Source: Pseudothermotoga sp. | GTDB lineage: Bacteria > Thermotogota > Thermotogae > Thermotogales > DSM-5069 | DNA length: 64,000 bases | Reading direction: 5' to 3' | Assembly (NCBI GenBank): GCA_025060105.1 | Contig: JANXCS010000001.1 | Span: 166,282 to 230,281, forward strand | The notes under the pieces: generated by a model | Databases searched by the model: none | What the model was told of the DNA's origin: nothing | The model's input: only the letters and a program-made list of their open reading frames with translations | Part shown: piece by piece, positions 14,954 through 36,497 of the stretch | Layout of the letters: each line of letters begins with the position of its first letter | How positions within the stretch are numbered: position 1 is the first letter of the stretch | Program-made: the position numbers and the translations under genes

Positions 14954-15913
14954 TCAGGATAGCGTCATGCACATCTCATAAAGTGATAGGTCCAATTTTT
15001 TCTTGGTCGAAATTACTTCTTCAGTATCAATCAATGTTATTTGCCCAGATTTGAGGACAGTTGTCGCACATTTTTCTCCGTCAAGCAGAGCTTGTACAGC
15101 TCGTACACCCATGCGCGTGGCAAGCAATCTGTCAAAAGCCGTTGGACTTCCACCCCTTTGGATGTGTCCTAATATAGATATTCTCGTTTCATAACCGATT
15201 TTGTTCGAAATCTTGCGTGCCACTTCTTCTGCTTTTCCAGCACCTTCTGCGACGACGACTATGCAGTTTAATTTTCCTCTCTTTCGTTCTTCAAGTAATC
15301 TCTCTGCGAGTTGGTCAAAATCTATGGGCACTTCTGGGATTATCGCTGCTTCTGCACCTGTGGCGATGGCCGACATGAGTGCGATGTACCCAGATTCTCT
15401 TCCCATGACTTCCACTATGAACGCGCGCTCATGTGAGGTGGCCGTGTCTTTAAGCTTCTGTATTGCATCGACGACTGTGTTGAGACAAGTATCAACACCA
15501 ATACACATGTCGGTGTGTGCGATATCGTTGTCTATCGTACCTGGTACACCTATCACTGGCACACCGAATTCTTTGTGGAACGTTACGGAACCTGTCAGAC
15601 TTCCCTCGCCCCCTATTACGACCAAGCCTTCTATACCGAATTTCGCAAGTTGGTTGGCCGCTTTCTCTCGACCTTCTCTTGTAAAGAATTCTCCACAGCG
15701 ACTCGTCCTCAAAATTGTCCCGCCTTTCTCCATGATACCAGCGACGGACGCAAAGTTCAATTCTTTGATGGCTCCATCGATCAAACCACAGTAACCTCGT
15801 TCAATTCCAAAAACTTTCAGTCCATTTCTGACCCCATAGCGTACAACAGCTCTAATTGCTGCGTTCATGCCTGGTGAATCTCCTCCACTTGTCAAAACGC
15901 CTATTGTTTTCAT
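14954..15913 (-). CDS. pfkA: ATP-dependent 6-phosphofructokinase
   Basis: 319 residues, normal for bacterial PfkA. It phosphorylates fructose 6-phosphate with ATP. Motifs: [19 protein letters not shown] (ATP loop), GGTILRTSR with the donor-binding Arg, GGEGSLTGS (GGDGS position, here with Glu), VPGTIDND with catalytic Asp and the Gly typical of ATP enzymes, VEVMGRESG and GHIQRGGSP (sugar-phosphate binding). ATG 15913 follows GGGGGTATCAGC; an upstream in-frame ATG adds 48 unrelated residues and was rejected. It precedes pyk by nine bases. A TGGTATAAT element sits 38 bases upstream. Contrast with the two other PFK-family genes in this window at 21314 and 27911. Confidence 0.96.
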
Positions 15914-21313: not shown

Positions 21314-22573
21314 TCAATCCGCTATGTTTGCAAATTTTTGTGCGAATTGTTCCGGAGTCATTTTGGCTATTGAAGCCAGTTTAGAGAGCATAGTGGGATC
21401 TTCCAGATCTCTCTTTGTAAGTTTTATCATGTAACTCTTCGCAACCTTGTAATGTTCAGAATTTAGATCTACTAAGCGTACCTTGGTTCTTCCAGTTTTA
21501 GGATCTATCAGTTCTTCAAAGGGTAAAACAGTTATTCTGCCTTGGTCCACACAAACCATACCGTTACTCAATTTTGGCTCTATTTTTCCAAGCAGGAATT
21601 GAACCGCACCGTATCCCAGTGTTCTTGTGTAATCAATATCGAACGGAATGGGTCTAGCGCATCTCAGTTCATAGCCTAGTGTGACATCAACGATTGGCAT
21701 TTCTTCGCCTCTTTCAGCGAATCTTTTCTGGATTTCTCTTTTCAATATTGTAGCGAGTGGTATTTCACTCAATCTGATATGACCATGTGGATCTTCTTTA
21801 ACAATCACACCGGGTATCCTCGCAAGTTCCTGCTTGTCGAGTATCTCACCTATTCCTTCAGCTATCACAGCAAGACCATCATTTCTTCCAAGCGCCCTTC
21901 GTTTTATTATCGCTGCTTCGAGTACATCGCAAACTTCAGACAAGCTCACTTTCTCCTTTCGGAATTCTTCTGCGATGACCGTTACAGTTGCGCTGGCAGC
22001 TTTTCCTATTCCGAGCGCAAGGTGTCCGGCCTTCCTACCCATGACCACTACGAAGTACCATCTGTTGGTAGTTCTTGAATCTTGAAGCAGATTATAGACA
22101 AGCTCTGTACCCACGTGGCGAGCGGTTTCGTACCCAAAGGTCGGCATACCACCGGGCAAGGGCAGATCGTTATCAATGGTCTTAGGAACATGAGCCACGC
22201 GGATTGAACCCCCAGATAATTTTGAAACCGCCGATGCAGAGAAGGCGGTATCGTCGCCACCGATGGTCACAAGATACTTCACGTTGAGTTTTTTCAAAGT
22301 TTCGACAACGCTCTCAAGATCTTTTTGATTCTTAGTTGGATTCGCCCTCGAAGTTCTGAGGATCGAGCCACCTTCAGTGTGAATTCGTGACACATCCGAG
22401 ATGCTGAGCGATCTTATCATATCCGTTCTGCCCTTCATGAGATGCTCAAATCCATCGTATATTCCTATCACCTCAAGCCCATTGTTTGTAGCTTCAATAG
22501 TTACGGCGTTTATGACGCTGTTTATACCAGGAGCAGGTCCTCCTCCGACCAAGATTGCAACACGTTCTGGCAT
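21314..22573 (-). CDS. pfp: Pyrophosphate-dependent 6-phosphofructokinase
   Basis: 419 residues, the length of the Thermotoga PPi-PFK group. It phosphorylates fructose 6-phosphate with PPi, reversibly. Two positions mark the donor: GGDD (in YLVTIGGDDTAFSAS) replaces the GGDGS of ATP enzymes, and PKTIDND has Lys where ATP enzymes have Gly. Other blocks are LVGGGPAPGINSVI at the N terminus, GGSILRTSRANP, VVVMGRKAGHLALG and GYELRCARPIPFD. ATG 22573 was chosen over GTG 22579 because GAGGAGGTG lies eight bases before the ATG. A TATAAT at 22597-22602 (minus) is a plausible -10, without a clear -35. It diverges from the lysine-pathway leader. Confidence 0.95.
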   Translation of the reverse strand: MPERVAILVGGGPAPGINSVINAVTIEATNNGLEVIGIYDGFEHLMKGRTDMIRSLSISDVSRIHTEGGSILRTSRANPTKNQKDLESVVETLKKLNVKYLVTIGGDDTAFSASAVSKLSGGSIRVAHVPKTIDNDLPLPGGMPTFGYETARHVGTELVYNLLQDSRTTNRWYFVVVMGRKAGHLALGIGKAASATVTVIAEEFRKEKVSLSEVCDVLEAAIIKRRALGRNDGLAVIAEGIGEILDKQELARIPGVIVKEDPHGHIRLSEIPLATILKREIQKRFAERGEEMPIVDVTLGYELRCARPIPFDIDYTRTLGYGAVQFLLGKIEPKLSNGMVCVDQGRITVLPFEELIDPKTGRTKVRLVDLNSEHYKVAKSYMIKLTKRDLEDPTMLSKLASIAKMTPEQFAQKFANIAD

Positions 22574-22764
22574 TCTCACTACACCTCCTCTTCAAAATTA
22601 TAAATGTGCTCGGTATCGACCGTGTGGTTAACAATTTCGTCAGAGAGTTTTATTTATTTGTTCAGCAATTGGTGTTCTAGATGAGGTTAGAATTCAAACT
22701 AAAGAGAGGTAGTGTTTGTGACATGTTGAACGAAGGTCTTATTGGAACGTTTTTGAAGGTCCAA

Positions 22765-25957: not shown

Positions 25958-27904
25958 TTGTTTTTGGCATTCATTGCTTCACTTTTGGGATTAGCTTACG
26001 TGCTGCTCCTTTCCATGAAGATTTTGGACAGTAGCCCTGGCAATGAAAAAACGATGCAACTTTCAGAGATCATTCAAAAAGGCGCTAGATCTTTTTTGTT
26101 TCAAGAGTACAAGGTCTTTTTACCGTTCGTTCTTGCTCTATCCATTTTACTTGGTATCTCATTGGATTGGTATATTTCGGCAGTTTTTACCGTTGGTGCA
26201 ATTCTCTCAACGCTCAGCGGTTTCTTCGGTATGGCGGTGGCCACGAAAGCGAATGCTCGAACGAGTTGGGCAGCGAGATCCAGTCTTGGAAAAGCTTTGA
26301 AAATTTCTTTCAGTGGTGGAGCCGTCATGGGTTTAACAGTTTCATCGCTTGGTTTGCTGGGATTGGTATTAGTGTACATATTGGCCAAGGACGTTTCAAA
26401 AGCTAGTTATTATTCGTTGGGAGCTTCTTTCGTTGCCCTTTTTGCAAGGGTTGGAGGGGGTATATTCACAAAGGCAGCCGACGTGGGTGCCGATATTGTT
26501 GGAAAAACTGAGGCCAATCTTCCCGAAGACGATCCGAGGAATCCTGCTGTAATTGCAGATAACGTTGGTGACAATGTGGGTGACGTGGCCGGTATGGGAG
26601 CAGATTTGTTTGAATCGTATGTTGGTTCAATGTTCTCCGCCCTCGCTCTGGCTTCCGCTTTAGGTGATGAACGTAAGCTTAACTTCGTCATGTTCACAGT
26701 TTCCATGGGTTTGTTGTCATCCATGTTTTCAGTGTGGTTGACAAGGTTTCTCAGTGATAAAACAAAGAATGTTGCTTCGACTCTAAGGATTGGTACACTC
26801 ATGGCAAATATAGTTCTAGCTGTATGTCTCATGTTTTACTCGATCATTCAGGAGAGCTTCAAAGAATTTTTTGTTGTGCTAGTTGGTATCATCATTGGTA
26901 TCACGATCGGCTTACTCACGGAGTATTACACTTCTGGTGCTAGAATAGAAAAACTTGCAAGATCCGCTTTAATGGGTCCTGCAAATCTTTTGATCAATGG
27001 CCTAGCTCTTGGTATGGAGTCAACGCTCATTGTGACTATCATGATAGCTGCTGGTGTGATTTTTTGTCATTGGTTACTTGGTTTGTTTGGAGTGGCTCTT
27101 GCTGCAGTTGGAATGCTTGCCACCTTAGGAATGAGTCTCTCAATAGATGCTTATGGTCCCATAGCGGACAACGCCGGTGGTATAGCTCAGATGGCGAGTT
27201 TGGGAGAAGAAGTCAGGAAAGTGACAGATCAGCTTGATGCTGTGGGTAACACCACTGCAGCGATGGGCAAGGGGTTTGCCATAGCTTCCGCTGCCATGAC
27301 GAGTTTGGCACTTTTTGCTAATTTTGCCAGTGTATCTCACATGGGAAATTTGGATATAAGGCAACCCACCCTTTTTGTTGGCGCTTTGATCGGGGCAATG
27401 TTACCTTTCCTTTTCAGCGCCCTGGCAATGAAAGCTGTAGGTTGCGCAGCAGACGAAATGGTTGAGGAAATCAGAAGACAGATAAGGGAAATACCAGGCA
27501 TCATATCTGGTGAAACTCTTCCAAATTACGCTAAATGTATTCAAATAGCGACCAGAGGCGCTCTCAAGAGAATGGTGGTTCCCACCCTGCTGGCAATTGG
27601 TTCACCCACCCTGGCTTATTTAACAATCGGTGTCATTGGGACCGCAGGACTATTAATTGGTGCCACGGTGTGTGGTGTGATGGTTGCGATTTTTATGGCT
27701 AATTCGGGTGGAGCATGGGATAATGCGAAGAAATACGTTGAAGATGGACACTTTGGTGGTAAAGGTTCTATAACGCACAAAGCCACAGTCATCGGTGATA
27801 CTGTGGGAGATCCATTCAAAGACACCGCTGGTCCATCAATAAACATTCTAATTAAGCTCATGGCAATCACATCAGTAGTGATAGCTACAATGATGGGGAG
27901 GTAA
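25958..27904 (+). CDS. hppA: Membrane-bound ion-pumping pyrophosphatase
   Basis: 648 residues, about 16 membrane segments. It couples PPi hydrolysis to H+ or Na+ export. The substrate region is intact: KAADVGADIVGKTEANLPED, NPAVIADNVGDNVGDVAGM, and late GGAWDNAKKYVE and GDTVGDPFKDTAGPS. The K+-dependence position is GNTTAAMGKG: Ala, as in K+-requiring enzymes (K+-independent ones have Lys). The Thermotoga maritima enzyme of this class is known to pump Na+; whether this one does is inference. The start is TTG 25958 behind GAGGAGGTGCACCCCT. It is followed by a PFK-like gene six bases on. Confidence 0.95.
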   Translation: MFLAFIASLLGLAYVLLLSMKILDSSPGNEKTMQLSEIIQKGARSFLFQEYKVFLPFVLALSILLGISLDWYISAVFTVGAILSTLSGFFGMAVATKANARTSWAARSSLGKALKISFSGGAVMGLTVSSLGLLGLVLVYILAKDVSKASYYSLGASFVALFARVGGGIFTKAADVGADIVGKTEANLPEDDPRNPAVIADNVGDNVGDVAGMGADLFESYVGSMFSALALASALGDERKLNFVMFTVSMGLLSSMFSVWLTRFLSDKTKNVASTLRIGTLMANIVLAVCLMFYSIIQESFKEFFVVLVGIIIGITIGLLTEYYTSGARIEKLARSALMGPANLLINGLALGMESTLIVTIMIAAGVIFCHWLLGLFGVALAAVGMLATLGMSLSIDAYGPIADNAGGIAQMASLGEEVRKVTDQLDAVGNTTAAMGKGFAIASAAMTSLALFANFASVSHMGNLDIRQPTLFVGALIGAMLPFLFSALAMKAVGCAADEMVEEIRRQIREIPGIISGETLPNYAKCIQIATRGALKRMVVPTLLAIGSPTLAYLTIGVIGTAGLLIGATVCGVMVAIFMANSGGAWDNAKKYVEDGHFGGKGSITHKATVIGDTVGDPFKDTAGPSINILIKLMAITSVVIATMMGR

Positions 27905-27910
27905 GGATGT

Positions 27911-28921
27911 ATGAAAAGAGCGGCCGTTCTCTGCGTGGGTAATGACTGTCCCGGTTTGAATGCAGCCATCAGAGCTATAGTAGTTAAGAGTACAGAGCTT
28001 GGGATTGAAGTTCTCGGTGTCAGAGATGGTTTTGAGGGACTCTTGAAAGACAATCTTGATGTATTGACTAAGATGAACGTGTCTGGAATCTTACACAGAG
28101 GAGGCACCATTTTAGGTACATCGTTACTGATACCAGAAACTGAAGAACAGATCAAATCCATTCAGAGGAAAGTAGAGCAGTATGCGATCACTTCATTGTT
28201 GATTCTTGGGGGCAGACTTGGGGCAAGGTCTGCATTGAACCTTGCAAAGTATGGAGTGCCTTCTGTGCTCATTCCGGCGACTATAGACAATGATCTTGCC
28301 TTCAGTGATTTTTCGATAGGCTTCTTCACGGCAGTTGAAAATGTTAAGAATGCTTTGGATGTACTTCATTCTACTGCGGAATCTCACCATAGAGTGATGA
28401 TAGTTGAAACCATGGGTAGGCCGGGAGGTTGGATAGCCACCGTTGGAGGATTAACAGGCGGAGCAGATTACGTTGTGTCCAGCGCGGAACCCTTTGAACC
28501 GATGGATCTTCTCAAAAGAATAAAAGTACGTTACGAAGGTCATAAGAAATTTTCCATCATCGTTGTTGAGAGTGGTGTCAAATTACCCGAGGATTTTTAT
28601 GAAAACTTAAACCTCTCGAAGGATACACCAGCATCGCAAGCTATAGGTACATTTGTGGAGAAAAATTTCAAAGAACTTGGGGTGGAGTGGAGATACACCA
28701 ACCTTGGATACTTGCAACGTGGTGGTAGCCCAGTGGCAATGGATCGCTTGATAGCCACGTTAATGGCTACCAGAGCTGTGGAGATGATTAAAGTGGCTAA
28801 AGTGTACCATGCAGTAGGTATGAAAGGTCTGACTGTGACGGAAGCACCGTATTCTGAAACTATGTTGAATATCAGAGCTGTTGAAGACTACCTGAAAGTA
28901 CTTGTCAAACTCTTTTACTGA
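27911..28921 (+). CDS. Divergent phosphofructokinase-family protein with altered phosphate-donor site
   Basis: 336 residues of PFK fold. Sugar-phosphate side conserved: PATIDND (catalytic Asp), SHHRVMIVETMGRPGG, IIVVESGVK and LGYLQRGGSPVAMDR. Donor side altered: the GGDGS motif reads GGRLG, the N-terminal GGDxPG loop reads GNDCPG, and the Arg of GGTxLxTSR is Leu (GGTILGTSLL). It therefore matches neither the ATP type (GGDGS, Gly in PGTIDND) nor the PPi type (GGDD, Lys in PKTIDND). It may use another donor, bind sugar phosphate as a sensor, or be inactive. The frame is intact and compact, with ATG 27911 behind GGGAGGTAAGGATGT, so it is not a pseudogene. It lies 6 bases after hppA. Confidence 0.85.
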   Translation: MKRAAVLCVGNDCPGLNAAIRAIVVKSTELGIEVLGVRDGFEGLLKDNLDVLTKMNVSGILHRGGTILGTSLLIPETEEQIKSIQRKVEQYAITSLLILGGRLGARSALNLAKYGVPSVLIPATIDNDLAFSDFSIGFFTAVENVKNALDVLHSTAESHHRVMIVETMGRPGGWIATVGGLTGGADYVVSSAEPFEPMDLLKRIKVRYEGHKKFSIIVVESGVKLPEDFYENLNLSKDTPASQAIGTFVEKNFKELGVEWRYTNLGYLQRGGSPVAMDRLIATLMATRAVEMIKVAKVYHAVGMKGLTVTEAPYSETMLNIRAVEDYLKVLVKLFY

Positions 28922-28931
28922 GGTGGTTCCT

Positions 28932-29591
28932 TTGGGGTTGCTTCAAATACTTGGACCTGTGATGGTTGGTCCTTCAAGCTCGCATACACTTGGGGCGATG
29001 AGAATAGCAAAGTTCGTACGAAAGTTCATATCAAATCTACCGGATGAGGTTCATTTCGTCCTTCACGGATCGTTCGCGATGACTGCTGAAGGACATGGAA
29101 CGAAGAAGGCTTTGCTGGCGGGTATTCTGGATCTAGATTATGATGATGAAAGAATTGCTCAGTCTTACACGTTGGCAAAACAAATCGGTTTGAAATTCAG
29201 TTTTGAAGTGGCTGACCTTGGGGATGTCCATCCGAATACTGTGCGTGTGAAATTCCATCACAATGGACTTTATCATGAAATAGAAGGTTGTTCCATAGGT
29301 GGGGGTGCAATAAGAATCAAAAAAATAGATGATGTTGATTGTGATCTGAATTGGAACTACGATACTTTGATCATCATAAATAAAGATGAACCAAAAGCGT
29401 TGATGAGGATTCTCAGCTGCGTGGATGCGAACATAGCTAACCTGTATTTAAGGCGAATCAACATGCTGCAGCAAAGAGCTGTGACCATCATAGAACTCGA
29501 CGAATCCAAATTCAATGTCGAGAAAATCCGCAATTTAGATGTGGTTTTTGAATACTATTTTGTTCCTAAAGATCATCTTATGGGGAGTTGA
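28932..29591 (+). CDS. sdaAB: L-serine dehydratase, iron-sulfur type, beta subunit
   Basis: 219 residues. With the alpha subunit it deaminates L-serine to pyruvate and ammonia. ILGPVMVGPSSSHTLGAMRI at the N terminus is the family signature, FVLHGSFAMTAEGHGTKKAL follows, and the C-terminal half is an ACT-like regulatory domain. I place the start at TTG 28932, five bases after GAGGTGG; an earlier TTG at 28902 lies inside the previous gene without a site. Nine bases separate it from sdaAA. It is in a run hppA - PFK-like - sdaAB - sdaAA - DUF2804, all with gaps under about 12 bases or overlaps. Confidence 0.92.
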   Translation: MGLLQILGPVMVGPSSSHTLGAMRIAKFVRKFISNLPDEVHFVLHGSFAMTAEGHGTKKALLAGILDLDYDDERIAQSYTLAKQIGLKFSFEVADLGDVHPNTVRVKFHHNGLYHEIEGCSIGGGAIRIKKIDDVDCDLNWNYDTLIIINKDEPKALMRILSCVDANIANLYLRRINMLQQRAVTIIELDESKFNVEKIRNLDVVFEYYFVPKDHLMGS

Positions 29592-29599
29592 TTGAGAAG

Positions 29600-30472
29600 A
29601 TGAAATTCTTACAGTTGTTGAACGTGGCTCAAAAAGCAAATCAACCTTTTCATGAGGTAGTGTTGGTTGAACAAATGTTAGAAGATGGCTCAGATCCGCT
29701 CGAAATGAAATCAAAAGTGCGTTCGCTTTTACATACCATGTTAGAAGTTGCCGAATATAATTACGGTAAGATTCAAAAGACTTTGGTTGGATTGTGTGGC
29801 AACAACGCGTATCTTCTCTCACTTTATGAACCTAAGGTCATGAGTGAGTTCATGCACACAGCTATGGTAGCAGCTCTATCAGTCGCAGAGGCAAACGCTT
29901 CGATGAAAAAAATTGTTGCGTGTCCAACTGCTGGATCGTGTGGTGTTATGCACGGGATGATCTATGCGCTTGCTAAAGTCACGCAAATAGATGAAGATCG
30001 ACTAGTGAACGGTTTAATAGTGGCCGGGATCTTTGGAGATATCATTGCTAAAACTGTTTCGATATCTGGTTCTGTAGCGGGATGCCAAGCTGAGATAGGT
30101 ACAGCCGCTGCGATGGCGAGTGCGATGATCGTTTATGTGTTGACTCAGGATGCTGAAAAATCTTCTCATGCTGCAGCTTTGTGTTTGAAATCGCTCATGG
30201 GATTAGTGTGTGATCCTATTGGTGGTTATGTAGAAGTACCGTGTGTCAAGAGAAATGCAGTAGCTGTCGCTGTCGCAATAGCCTCAGCAGAGATGGCACT
30301 TTCTGGCATCAAAAGTGTGATACCCTTTGATGAAGTTGTAGAAGCCATGGCAAAAGTGGGAAAAAGTTTGCCTGAAGAACTGAGAGAAACAGGCCGCGGT
30401 GGCATAGCTGGTACCAAAACGGCATGTTCAATACTTCAATCTTTCAGGAGTGGTGTGGTTGAAGAAAACTAG
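29600..30472 (+). CDS. sdaAA: L-serine dehydratase, iron-sulfur type, alpha subunit
   Basis: 290 residues from this start. Holds the [4Fe-4S] cluster that binds and activates serine. The cluster Cys lie in IVACPTAGSCGVMHGMIYAL, the VAGCQAEIGTAAAMASA segment and LVCDPIGGYVEVPCVKRNAV, all intact. ATG 29600 is my choice; TTG 29588, which overlaps the sdaAB stop, would add four residues and stands too close to GGGGAG. The 3' end overlaps the next gene. The two-subunit form is typical of anaerobes and oxygen-sensitive. Confidence 0.92.
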   Translation: MKFLQLLNVAQKANQPFHEVVLVEQMLEDGSDPLEMKSKVRSLLHTMLEVAEYNYGKIQKTLVGLCGNNAYLLSLYEPKVMSEFMHTAMVAALSVAEANASMKKIVACPTAGSCGVMHGMIYALAKVTQIDEDRLVNGLIVAGIFGDIIAKTVSISGSVAGCQAEIGTAAAMASAMIVYVLTQDAEKSSHAAALCLKSLMGLVCDPIGGYVEVPCVKRNAVAVAVAIASAEMALSGIKSVIPFDEVVEAMAKVGKSLPEELRETGRGGIAGTKTACSILQSFRSGVVEEN

Positions 30473-31542: not shown

Positions 31543-31702
31543 GTGTATCGGCAGTCGTAAGGACAAAAGAGGTCTTCGGTGAGAACTGAATAAATCCAAA
31601 GAGAGTCTAATAAAAGGCTCGAGTTTCTTTGTCCTCGGGTCATTGAAAAATGGATAGCAGTCCCGCCAAATCAAAGAGCTAAGGATCTAAAACCTTCTGT
31701 TT
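31543..31702 (+). other. 16S rRNA 5' leader with processing stem
   Basis: Holds no gene. ATGGATAGCAGTCCCGC at 31650-31666 pairs perfectly over 17 bases with GCGGGACTGCTATCCAT at 33268-33284, just after 16S; this is the long-range stem expected for RNase III excision of pre-16S. A second, local stem joins AGGACAAA (31560-31567) and TTTGTCCT (31628-31635). Confidence 0.85.
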
Positions 31703-33256
<1,554 letters not shown>

Positions 33257-33301
33257 AGGGAGAAAGAGCGGGACTGCTATCCATCTTTGAGTGACTCGAG
33301 A

Positions 33302-33378
33302 GGGCTCGTAGCTCAGGTGGTCAGAGCGCACGCCTGATAAGCGTGAGGACGGAGGTTCGAGTCCTCCCGAGCCCACCA
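33302..33378 (+). tRNA. tRNA-Ile (anticodon GAT)
   Basis: 77 bases with an encoded CCA. Acceptor stem GGGCTCG/CGAGCCC, D arm TAGCTCAGGTGGTCAGAGC, anticodon loop CTGATAA in a CGC.. stem, and T arm GGAGGTTCGAGTCCTCC. It lies in the 16S-23S spacer, the normal place for tRNA-Ile in bacteria. Confidence 0.97.
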
Positions 33379-33382
33379 TGGC

Positions 33383-33458
33383 GGGGACGTAGCTCAGCTG
33401 GGAGAGCGCCTGCTTTGCAAGCAGGAAGTCAGGGGTTCGAATCCCCTCGTCTCCACCA
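33383..33458 (+). tRNA. tRNA-Ala (anticodon TGC)
   Basis: 76 bases with an encoded CCA. Acceptor GGGGACG/CGTCTCC (one G-T pair), D arm AGCTCAGCTGGGAGAGC, anticodon stem-loop CCTGCTTTGCAAGCAGG, T arm AGGGGTTCGAATCCCCT. Four bases after tRNA-Ile. Confidence 0.97.
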
Positions 33459-33493
33459 AGGGAAGGGTCTTTGAAAACTGCATAGGAAGCGAA

Positions 33494-36497
<3,004 letters not shown>

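Follow-up and report, generated by a model that had tools for sequence, protein, structure and literature searches.

The DNA analysed here, which we call the window, is the 64,000-nucleotide stretch of Pseudothermotoga sp. given above. It carries a gene, termed pfkX below, for a protein of the phosphofructokinase (PFK) family, lying directly behind the gene for a membrane pyrophosphatase (mPPase, hppA). The features concerned are the following.

14954..15913, minus strand: ATP-type PFK with GGEGS, R72 and MGR retained; its start was placed at [11 protein letters not shown]
21314..22579, minus strand: PPi-type PFK; NF041103 equivalog, 648.1 bits over a cut-off of 550
25958..27904, plus strand: paired mPPase (short subtype, 648 aa) with intact catalytic motifs; the TTG start is that of the mechanical call
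27893..27910, plus strand: end of the mPPase ORF plus the 6-base gap, with a sequence like a ribosome-binding site for pfkX (GGGGAGG, about 27897-27903)
27911..28921, plus strand: pfkX, PFK-family protein with a dismantled phosphoryl-donor site, 336 aa, ATG start
28902..30472, plus strand: serine dehydratase beta and alpha ORFs (names from the earlier note), downstream and outside the conserved unit

The pfkX ORF starts six bases past the mPPase stop (27904 to 27911), exactly as the earlier note had it, and the GGGGAGG before it would be consistent with a single transcript. The two other PFKs that the genome holds above the family cut-off, one ATP-type and one PPi-type, are those listed, and a search of the same genome for a soluble family I pyrophosphatase found none. 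Further along the window (~31700-36000), the Pro/Arg-rich ORFs of the minus strand have the look of an rRNA operon read in antisense.

Fold and donor site of the window protein

The pfkX product is a confident member of the PFK-A fold. The PF00365 match at residues 3-293 covers the whole domain (E 1.4e-84; 284.2 bits against a cut-off of 30.9), an AlphaFold2 model built on an alignment of 32 sequences reached a pLDDT of 94.6 and a pTM of 0.91, and among solved structures the nearest match was Geobacillus PFK 3pfk, at Z 42.6 and 38% identity with an rmsd of 1.3 over 317 residues; from the model confidence and this structural match we read an ordinary PFK-A subunit fold. By sequence, it is the C-terminal half of human PFKs that gives the best PDB matches. 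The protein falls under the cut-off of the NCBIfam equivalog TIGR02482 for ATP-PFKs (228.6 versus 371.35 bits) and over that of the looser subfamily NF002872 (289.5 versus 253 bits).

Residues are numbered as in E. coli PfkA (L036), crystallographically, with the register checked on TIDND. We take D103 to be the Mg-binding position, Lys124 to be a signature residue of PPi-type PFKs, R171 and E222 to be sugar-side residues, and R162 and R243 to be cross-subunit arginines; the sugar-phosphate site as a whole presumably consists of R162, R243, H249, R252, M169, E222 and R171. The motifs of pfkX are GNDCPG, GGTILGTSLL, GGRLG, TIDND, MGR and LQRGGSP. That the donor site is lost, through GGRLG, GNDCPG and a Leu for Arg in GGTILGTSLL, had been proposed from the window alone, and the alignment confirmed all three changes: relative to E. 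coli PfkA, G11 is replaced by N, R72 by L, D103 by R, G104 by L, S105 by G and G124 by A, while T125, D127, D129, R162, R243 and R252 are kept, so that the catalytic core TIDND is present with its Thr125 and Asp127. The donor motifs set out in PMC11609450 are GGDGSxxG (ATP), GGDGSxxI (ADP) and GG(D/E)D(S/T) (PPi), and the donor determinants named in section 12 of PMC10339645 are R72, F73, R77, G104 and G108, with Arg72 contacting ATP. In pfkX the ATP motif is absent, with GGRLGARS in its place, the PPi motif is absent, with GGRLG and an Ala at 124, and the ADP motif is absent as well; the protein thus fits neither the ATP nor the PPi type, as claimed, nor the ADP type. The companion claim that the sugar side is kept stood only in part: TIDND, MGR and LQRGGSP are there in the window, but E222 is Ser and H249 is Tyr, and R171 is lost in most relatives.

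A gene pair in two phyla

Of 103 genomes from the class, presumably the Thermotogae given that the NF041103 model matched by the window's PPi-type PFK is a Thermotogales one, 49 hold an orthologue of pfkX: 10/11 in the window's own family (f1), 19/20 and 20/21 in two further families (f3 and f9), 0/14 in the Thermotogaceae-like family f2 and none in the others. The ORF is complete in 48; in the 49th (G044) it is cut by the contig end beside its mPPase. The same genomes hold the short mPPase subtype, defined by at least 720 bits and at least 56% identity to the window's protein, the next class of hits beginning at 537 bits: 49 genomes have both genes, 54 have neither and none has one only (score gaps behind this count, 720 versus 537 bits for the mPPase and 286 versus 192 bits). 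The two genes adjoin in 48 of the 49, and in 47 the pair is complete, adjacent and on one strand, with gaps of -14 to +38 bases in f1 and f3 and of 12 to 422 in f9; the sole exception in the class, G100, has both genes, unlinked and far apart. The hppA neighbourhood that the earlier note had remarked on is therefore kept in relatives, and hppA emerges as a constant partner rather than mere context. Everything else around the pair changes wholly between families: f3 loci have yajC-secD-secF-like genes upstream (18/18, named by eye from the sequences), f9 loci have assorted flanking genes, and the serine dehydratase genes, which do form a run of overlapping ORFs with pfkX in the window, follow it in f1 only (10/10, against 0/38 at other loci). 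Being confined to the window's own family, serine dehydratase was rejected as a functional partner. The coupling of pfkX to the mPPase is strong.

Both genes show low dN/dS, 0.040 (dS 0.56) and 0.047 (dS 0.22) for the unsaturated pairs of pfkX and 0.064 for the one unsaturated pair of the neighbouring mPPase, the pairs that include the window genome being saturated at synonymous sites; pfkX is under purifying selection. Judged by its intact catalytic motifs (DNVGDNVGD 49/49, GDTVGDPxKDT 48/49, EDDPRNP 49/49, GNTTAA kept), the paired pump appears to be active. Paired and unpaired mPPases differ consistently at 7 columns only, which distinguish them weakly, and with so few such columns an interface with pfkX is not apparent. 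Several f3 genomes (G012, G022, G036, G042) yielded no mPPase other than the paired short one, and in another genome a long mPPase lies in pieces, with a stop (G041:C1:1629066-1630572); the paired short pump may have replaced the long one in some f3 genomes. A second, unpaired mPPase with one in-frame TAA was seen at G006:C1:2017183-2019120.

The pair extends to a second phylum. A scan of genome contigs placed a degenerate PFK 11 bases past an mPPase in a Caldisericia MAG (L152), and when all PFK and mPPase coordinates were compared, such a PFK adjoined an mPPase in 8 of 54 Caldisericota genomes (7 loci with a complete PFK, 1 cut by a contig end). In the 1.9 Mb Caldisericia genome of L152 (G103) no PFK-family gene other than the degenerate one was found, an absence that is weak in a MAG. 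As a control, 19 related Caldisericota mPPases had no PFK in the fetched flanks (~0.2-1.5 kb per side), so that this type of mPPase can work without a PFK partner as well. A further 12 Caldisericota loci (the G129-G143 group; L268-L279) have no adjoining mPPase and carry the donor loop IIGDRSA or a close variant (L279: IIGDREA), with R72, the Arg of MGR (R171) and E222 kept; together with G100, this group shows that the linkage is not obligatory. The IIGDRSA proteins possibly reflect another donor change or a different partner. One of their genes (L274) sits between TldD/PmbA-like and NAD-synthetase-like genes, named by eye.

Among the 80 matches listed from the contig scan, two (L151, L152) combine a degenerate site with an upstream mPPase; for the remaining 78, the fetched DNA gave no mPPase hit and the ATP or GGDDT donor motif is retained, apart from isolated substitutions in a few, for example Gly for Asp103 in L194. 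In Atribacterota (50 genomes, best 20 loci inspected), a lost Asp or a flanking mPPase occurred in 0/20, and no relative of pfkX was found in the viral contigs searched. The Atribacterota PFKs L350-L369 have GGDGTxx(I/V) and Lys124, mostly with H, Q or R at 72; as far as their sequences tell, they mix ADP-type and PPi-type signatures, and their donor is not predictable from published motifs.

Residue columns and trees

The residue table comprises 55 complete proteins of the linked type, 48 from Thermotogota and 7 from Caldisericota, and excludes the fragments of G044 and G151. The donor site is lost in all 55: position 103 is R in 28, H in 20 and F in 7 and never D or E, as opposed to the ATP-PFKs of the class, which have D or E there in 30/30. 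Position 72 is L, K, V or T (Leu in 28/28 Thermotogales, Lys in 20/20 of f9), position 11 is N, G, A, R or S, position 104 is L, N, I, H, T, A or K, and Ala stands at 124 in pfkX and in every linked relative whose alignment was printed. The replacements go by lineage, as R103/L72, H103/K72 or F103/K-V-T-L72: the Arg and Leu of the window protein are kept in the 28 Thermotogales, and elsewhere 103 is H or F and 72 is K, V, T or L. In the linked Caldisericota proteins 103 is F, 72 is K, V, T or L, and 171 is G.

Outside the donor site, T125 (54/55), D127 (55/55), R162 (55/55), R243 (54/55), R252 (55/55) and R21 (55/55) hardly vary, the pair Asp127/Asn128 is invariant, and W174, H160, R207 and F214 are newly conserved, each in 55/55. 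D129 is Asn in 3 of the 7 linked Caldisericota proteins, R171, the MGR arginine, is replaced by K, A, D or G in the majority of pfkX relatives, E222 and H249 are altered in most linked-type proteins, and M169 is lost in f9. With R171 and E222 gone from most relatives, sugar-phosphate binding may have changed. Of the 30 ATP-PFKs of the class (window 14954-15913, L037-L065), 28 have E and 2 have D at 103; normal enzymes of the class thus vary at this Mg site and keep the acid.

A quick tree of 93 PFK rows, with 26 of the 48 complete Thermotogota pfkX proteins, joined these, the linked Caldisericota proteins and the unlinked Caldisericota group in one clade (SH-aLRT 96), and a careful tree of 62 rows, from which 31 long or near-duplicate rows were dropped, recovered the same clade at 100/97 (bootstrap/SH-aLRT); the long PPi-PFKs, the window's own type among them, lie outside both trees. 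Convergent loss of the donor site might have inflated this grouping and was rejected as its cause, given that the clade survives (SH-aLRT 96) once the donor and MGR columns are left out. A recent duplication of the cell's own ATP-PFK was rejected too, with an AU p of 5.5e-7 for a clade of Thermotogota pfkX and the ATP-PFKs of the class. The pfkX clade is separate from the ATP-PFKs and outside the GGDDT-type PFKs sampled, and its nearest other clade under midpoint rooting consists of short GGDDT-type Caldisericota PFKs (100/98). In the mPPase tree (75 rows, using 26 of the 49 paired mPPases), the paired Thermotogota mPPases form one clade (99) inside a clade (99) that includes Caldisericota mPPases, paired and unpaired, and they stand apart from the other Thermotogota mPPases; the linked Caldisericota mPPases are not one clade.

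A putative pseudoenzyme partner of the pump

Akin to the ATP-dependent PFK-As of E. coli (PfkA) and Geobacillus (3pfk), pfkX has the fold over its whole length, T125, D127, D129 and the 6-phosphate arginines, whereas GGDGSxxG, R72 and G11 are absent and its clade is a separate one. It resembles the PPi-dependent PFK-As in its PPi-linked genomic context and in having GGDDT Caldisericota proteins as the nearest other clade, and differs in being without GG(D/E)D and in having Ala for Lys124. Another likeness is to the fructose 2,6-bisphosphate-binding regulatory half at the C-terminus of eukaryotic PFK: it gives the best PDB sequence matches, and there, too, the donor site is lost (VGA and GGFEA stand at the donor motifs) and the sugar-phosphate pocket persists. 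Unlike that half, pfkX is a separate single-domain gene, has TIDND where SNN stands there, and is partnered by a membrane pump instead of a catalytic half. In methanotrophs, PPi-PFK and mPPase genes are linked, so that there as here a PFK-family gene is tied to an ion-pumping pyrophosphatase, except that the methanotroph PFK is an active PPi enzyme. According to PMC10339645, Tyr at 249 occurs in some Pfps, and R162, kept in pfkX, is changed in the Pfps named there; the ADP-dependent cyanobacterial PFK-As (PMC11609450) likewise form a clade of PFK-As marked by a donor-site signature of their own, but keep GGDGSxxI, of which pfkX has lost Asp, Gly and Ser. A search of the open-access literature found no paper on a PFK-like/mPPase pair.

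What, then, would such a protein do? The earlier note had offered another phosphoryl donor, a fructose-phosphate sensor and mixed tetramers. An active phosphotransferase with an unusual donor (e.g. PPi, polyphosphate or an acyl phosphate) or acceptor, drawing on the PPi or Pi of the neighbouring mPPase, would agree with the retention of T125 and D127, with the adjoining pyrophosphatase and with the GGDDT-type Caldisericota neighbours in the tree (100/98, midpoint rooting), which suggest a PPi-type ancestor. We nevertheless consider it unlikely: Asp103, Arg72 and Gly104 are gone, Ala replaces the PPi-type Lys124 in pfkX and in all linked relatives printed, D129 is Asn in some Caldisericota proteins, R171 is mostly lost, and the pocket was rebuilt differently in each lineage while the partner stayed unchanged, whereas a single shared donor should fix one pocket. 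Another catalytic role without a nucleotide donor, for instance as a sugar-phosphate phosphatase or isomerase, would account for the invariant Asp127/Asn128 and for the conserved W174, H160, R207 and F214; positive evidence for it is nil, and we hold it to be distinctly improbable.

Eukaryotic PFK and plant PFP have degenerate regulatory halves or subunits, and by that precedent pfkX could be a regulatory subunit that joins the cell's ATP-PFK or PPi-PFK in mixed tetramers. The PFK fold, the retained R162 and R243, the presence of both other PFKs in the genome and the human C-terminal halves as best PDB matches all speak for this. Yet pfkX tracks an mPPase instead; it is absent from 54 of the 103 genomes, including 14/14 of f2, a family of the same order whose members keep PFKs without it, and in one Caldisericia MAG a pfkX-type gene is the only PFK found. 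The idea is weakened accordingly, and we would regard it as improbable. As for a decaying paralogue hitch-hiking behind hppA, the lost donor residues are what speaks for it; with dN/dS at 0.04-0.05, complete ORFs in every genome but the one at a contig end (48 of 49) and retention across families despite differing gene surroundings, it was rejected as having next to no likelihood, and conservation in relatives likewise rules out a chance ORF.

The sensor is the best of the three ideas. Since the donor columns differ by lineage where a new donor should have fixed one pocket, a single new donor for pfkX is disfavoured; a protein that only bound a sugar phosphate and altered its shape would be under no such constraint. 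Since the partner stays constant through changing donor sites and neighbours, the mPPase is what pfkX would act on or with. Whether pfkX is a sugar-phosphate-binding pseudoenzyme of the PFK-A fold that works with the adjoining mPPase strikes us as evenly balanced, the invariant catalytic Asp127, which would be expected of an enzyme too, counting against it. Somewhat more tentatively, this former phosphofructokinase may be a dedicated metabolite-sensing regulator of the ion-pumping mPPase in two bacterial phyla, by which hexose phosphate would be wired to PPi use and membrane energisation. On the proposed regulatory mechanism, pfkX is predicted still to bind a sugar phosphate, either fructose 6-phosphate or fructose 1,6-bisphosphate, and no longer to carry out donor-dependent phosphorylation, and its bound or unbound state would tune the mPPase, either by touching it on the cytoplasmic side or by regulating its supply of pyrophosphate. 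The pump might then spare pyrophosphate for the PPi-PFK when hexose phosphate is plentiful and pump ions otherwise; the direction of regulation and the physical contact are guesses. In Methylotuvimicrobium, deletion of the PPi-PFK followed by adaptation selected an hppA mutation and lower hpp expression (PMC7298851). This independent hint shows that PPi can couple PFK chemistry to mPPase activity, and it is not evidence for pfkX itself.

Passing the NF002872 cut-off as they do, pfkX genes will be labelled ‘ATP-dependent 6-phosphofructokinase’ in databases, and metabolic models may count a PFK that is none. The usual view of membrane pyrophosphatases is of pumps that are complete in themselves. 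If our reading is true, a soluble partner derived from the gate of glycolysis would, in fermenting thermophiles, tie carbon flux directly to the pyrophosphate pool and to ion gradients, and would add a bacterial case of a PFK turned from enzyme into sensor.
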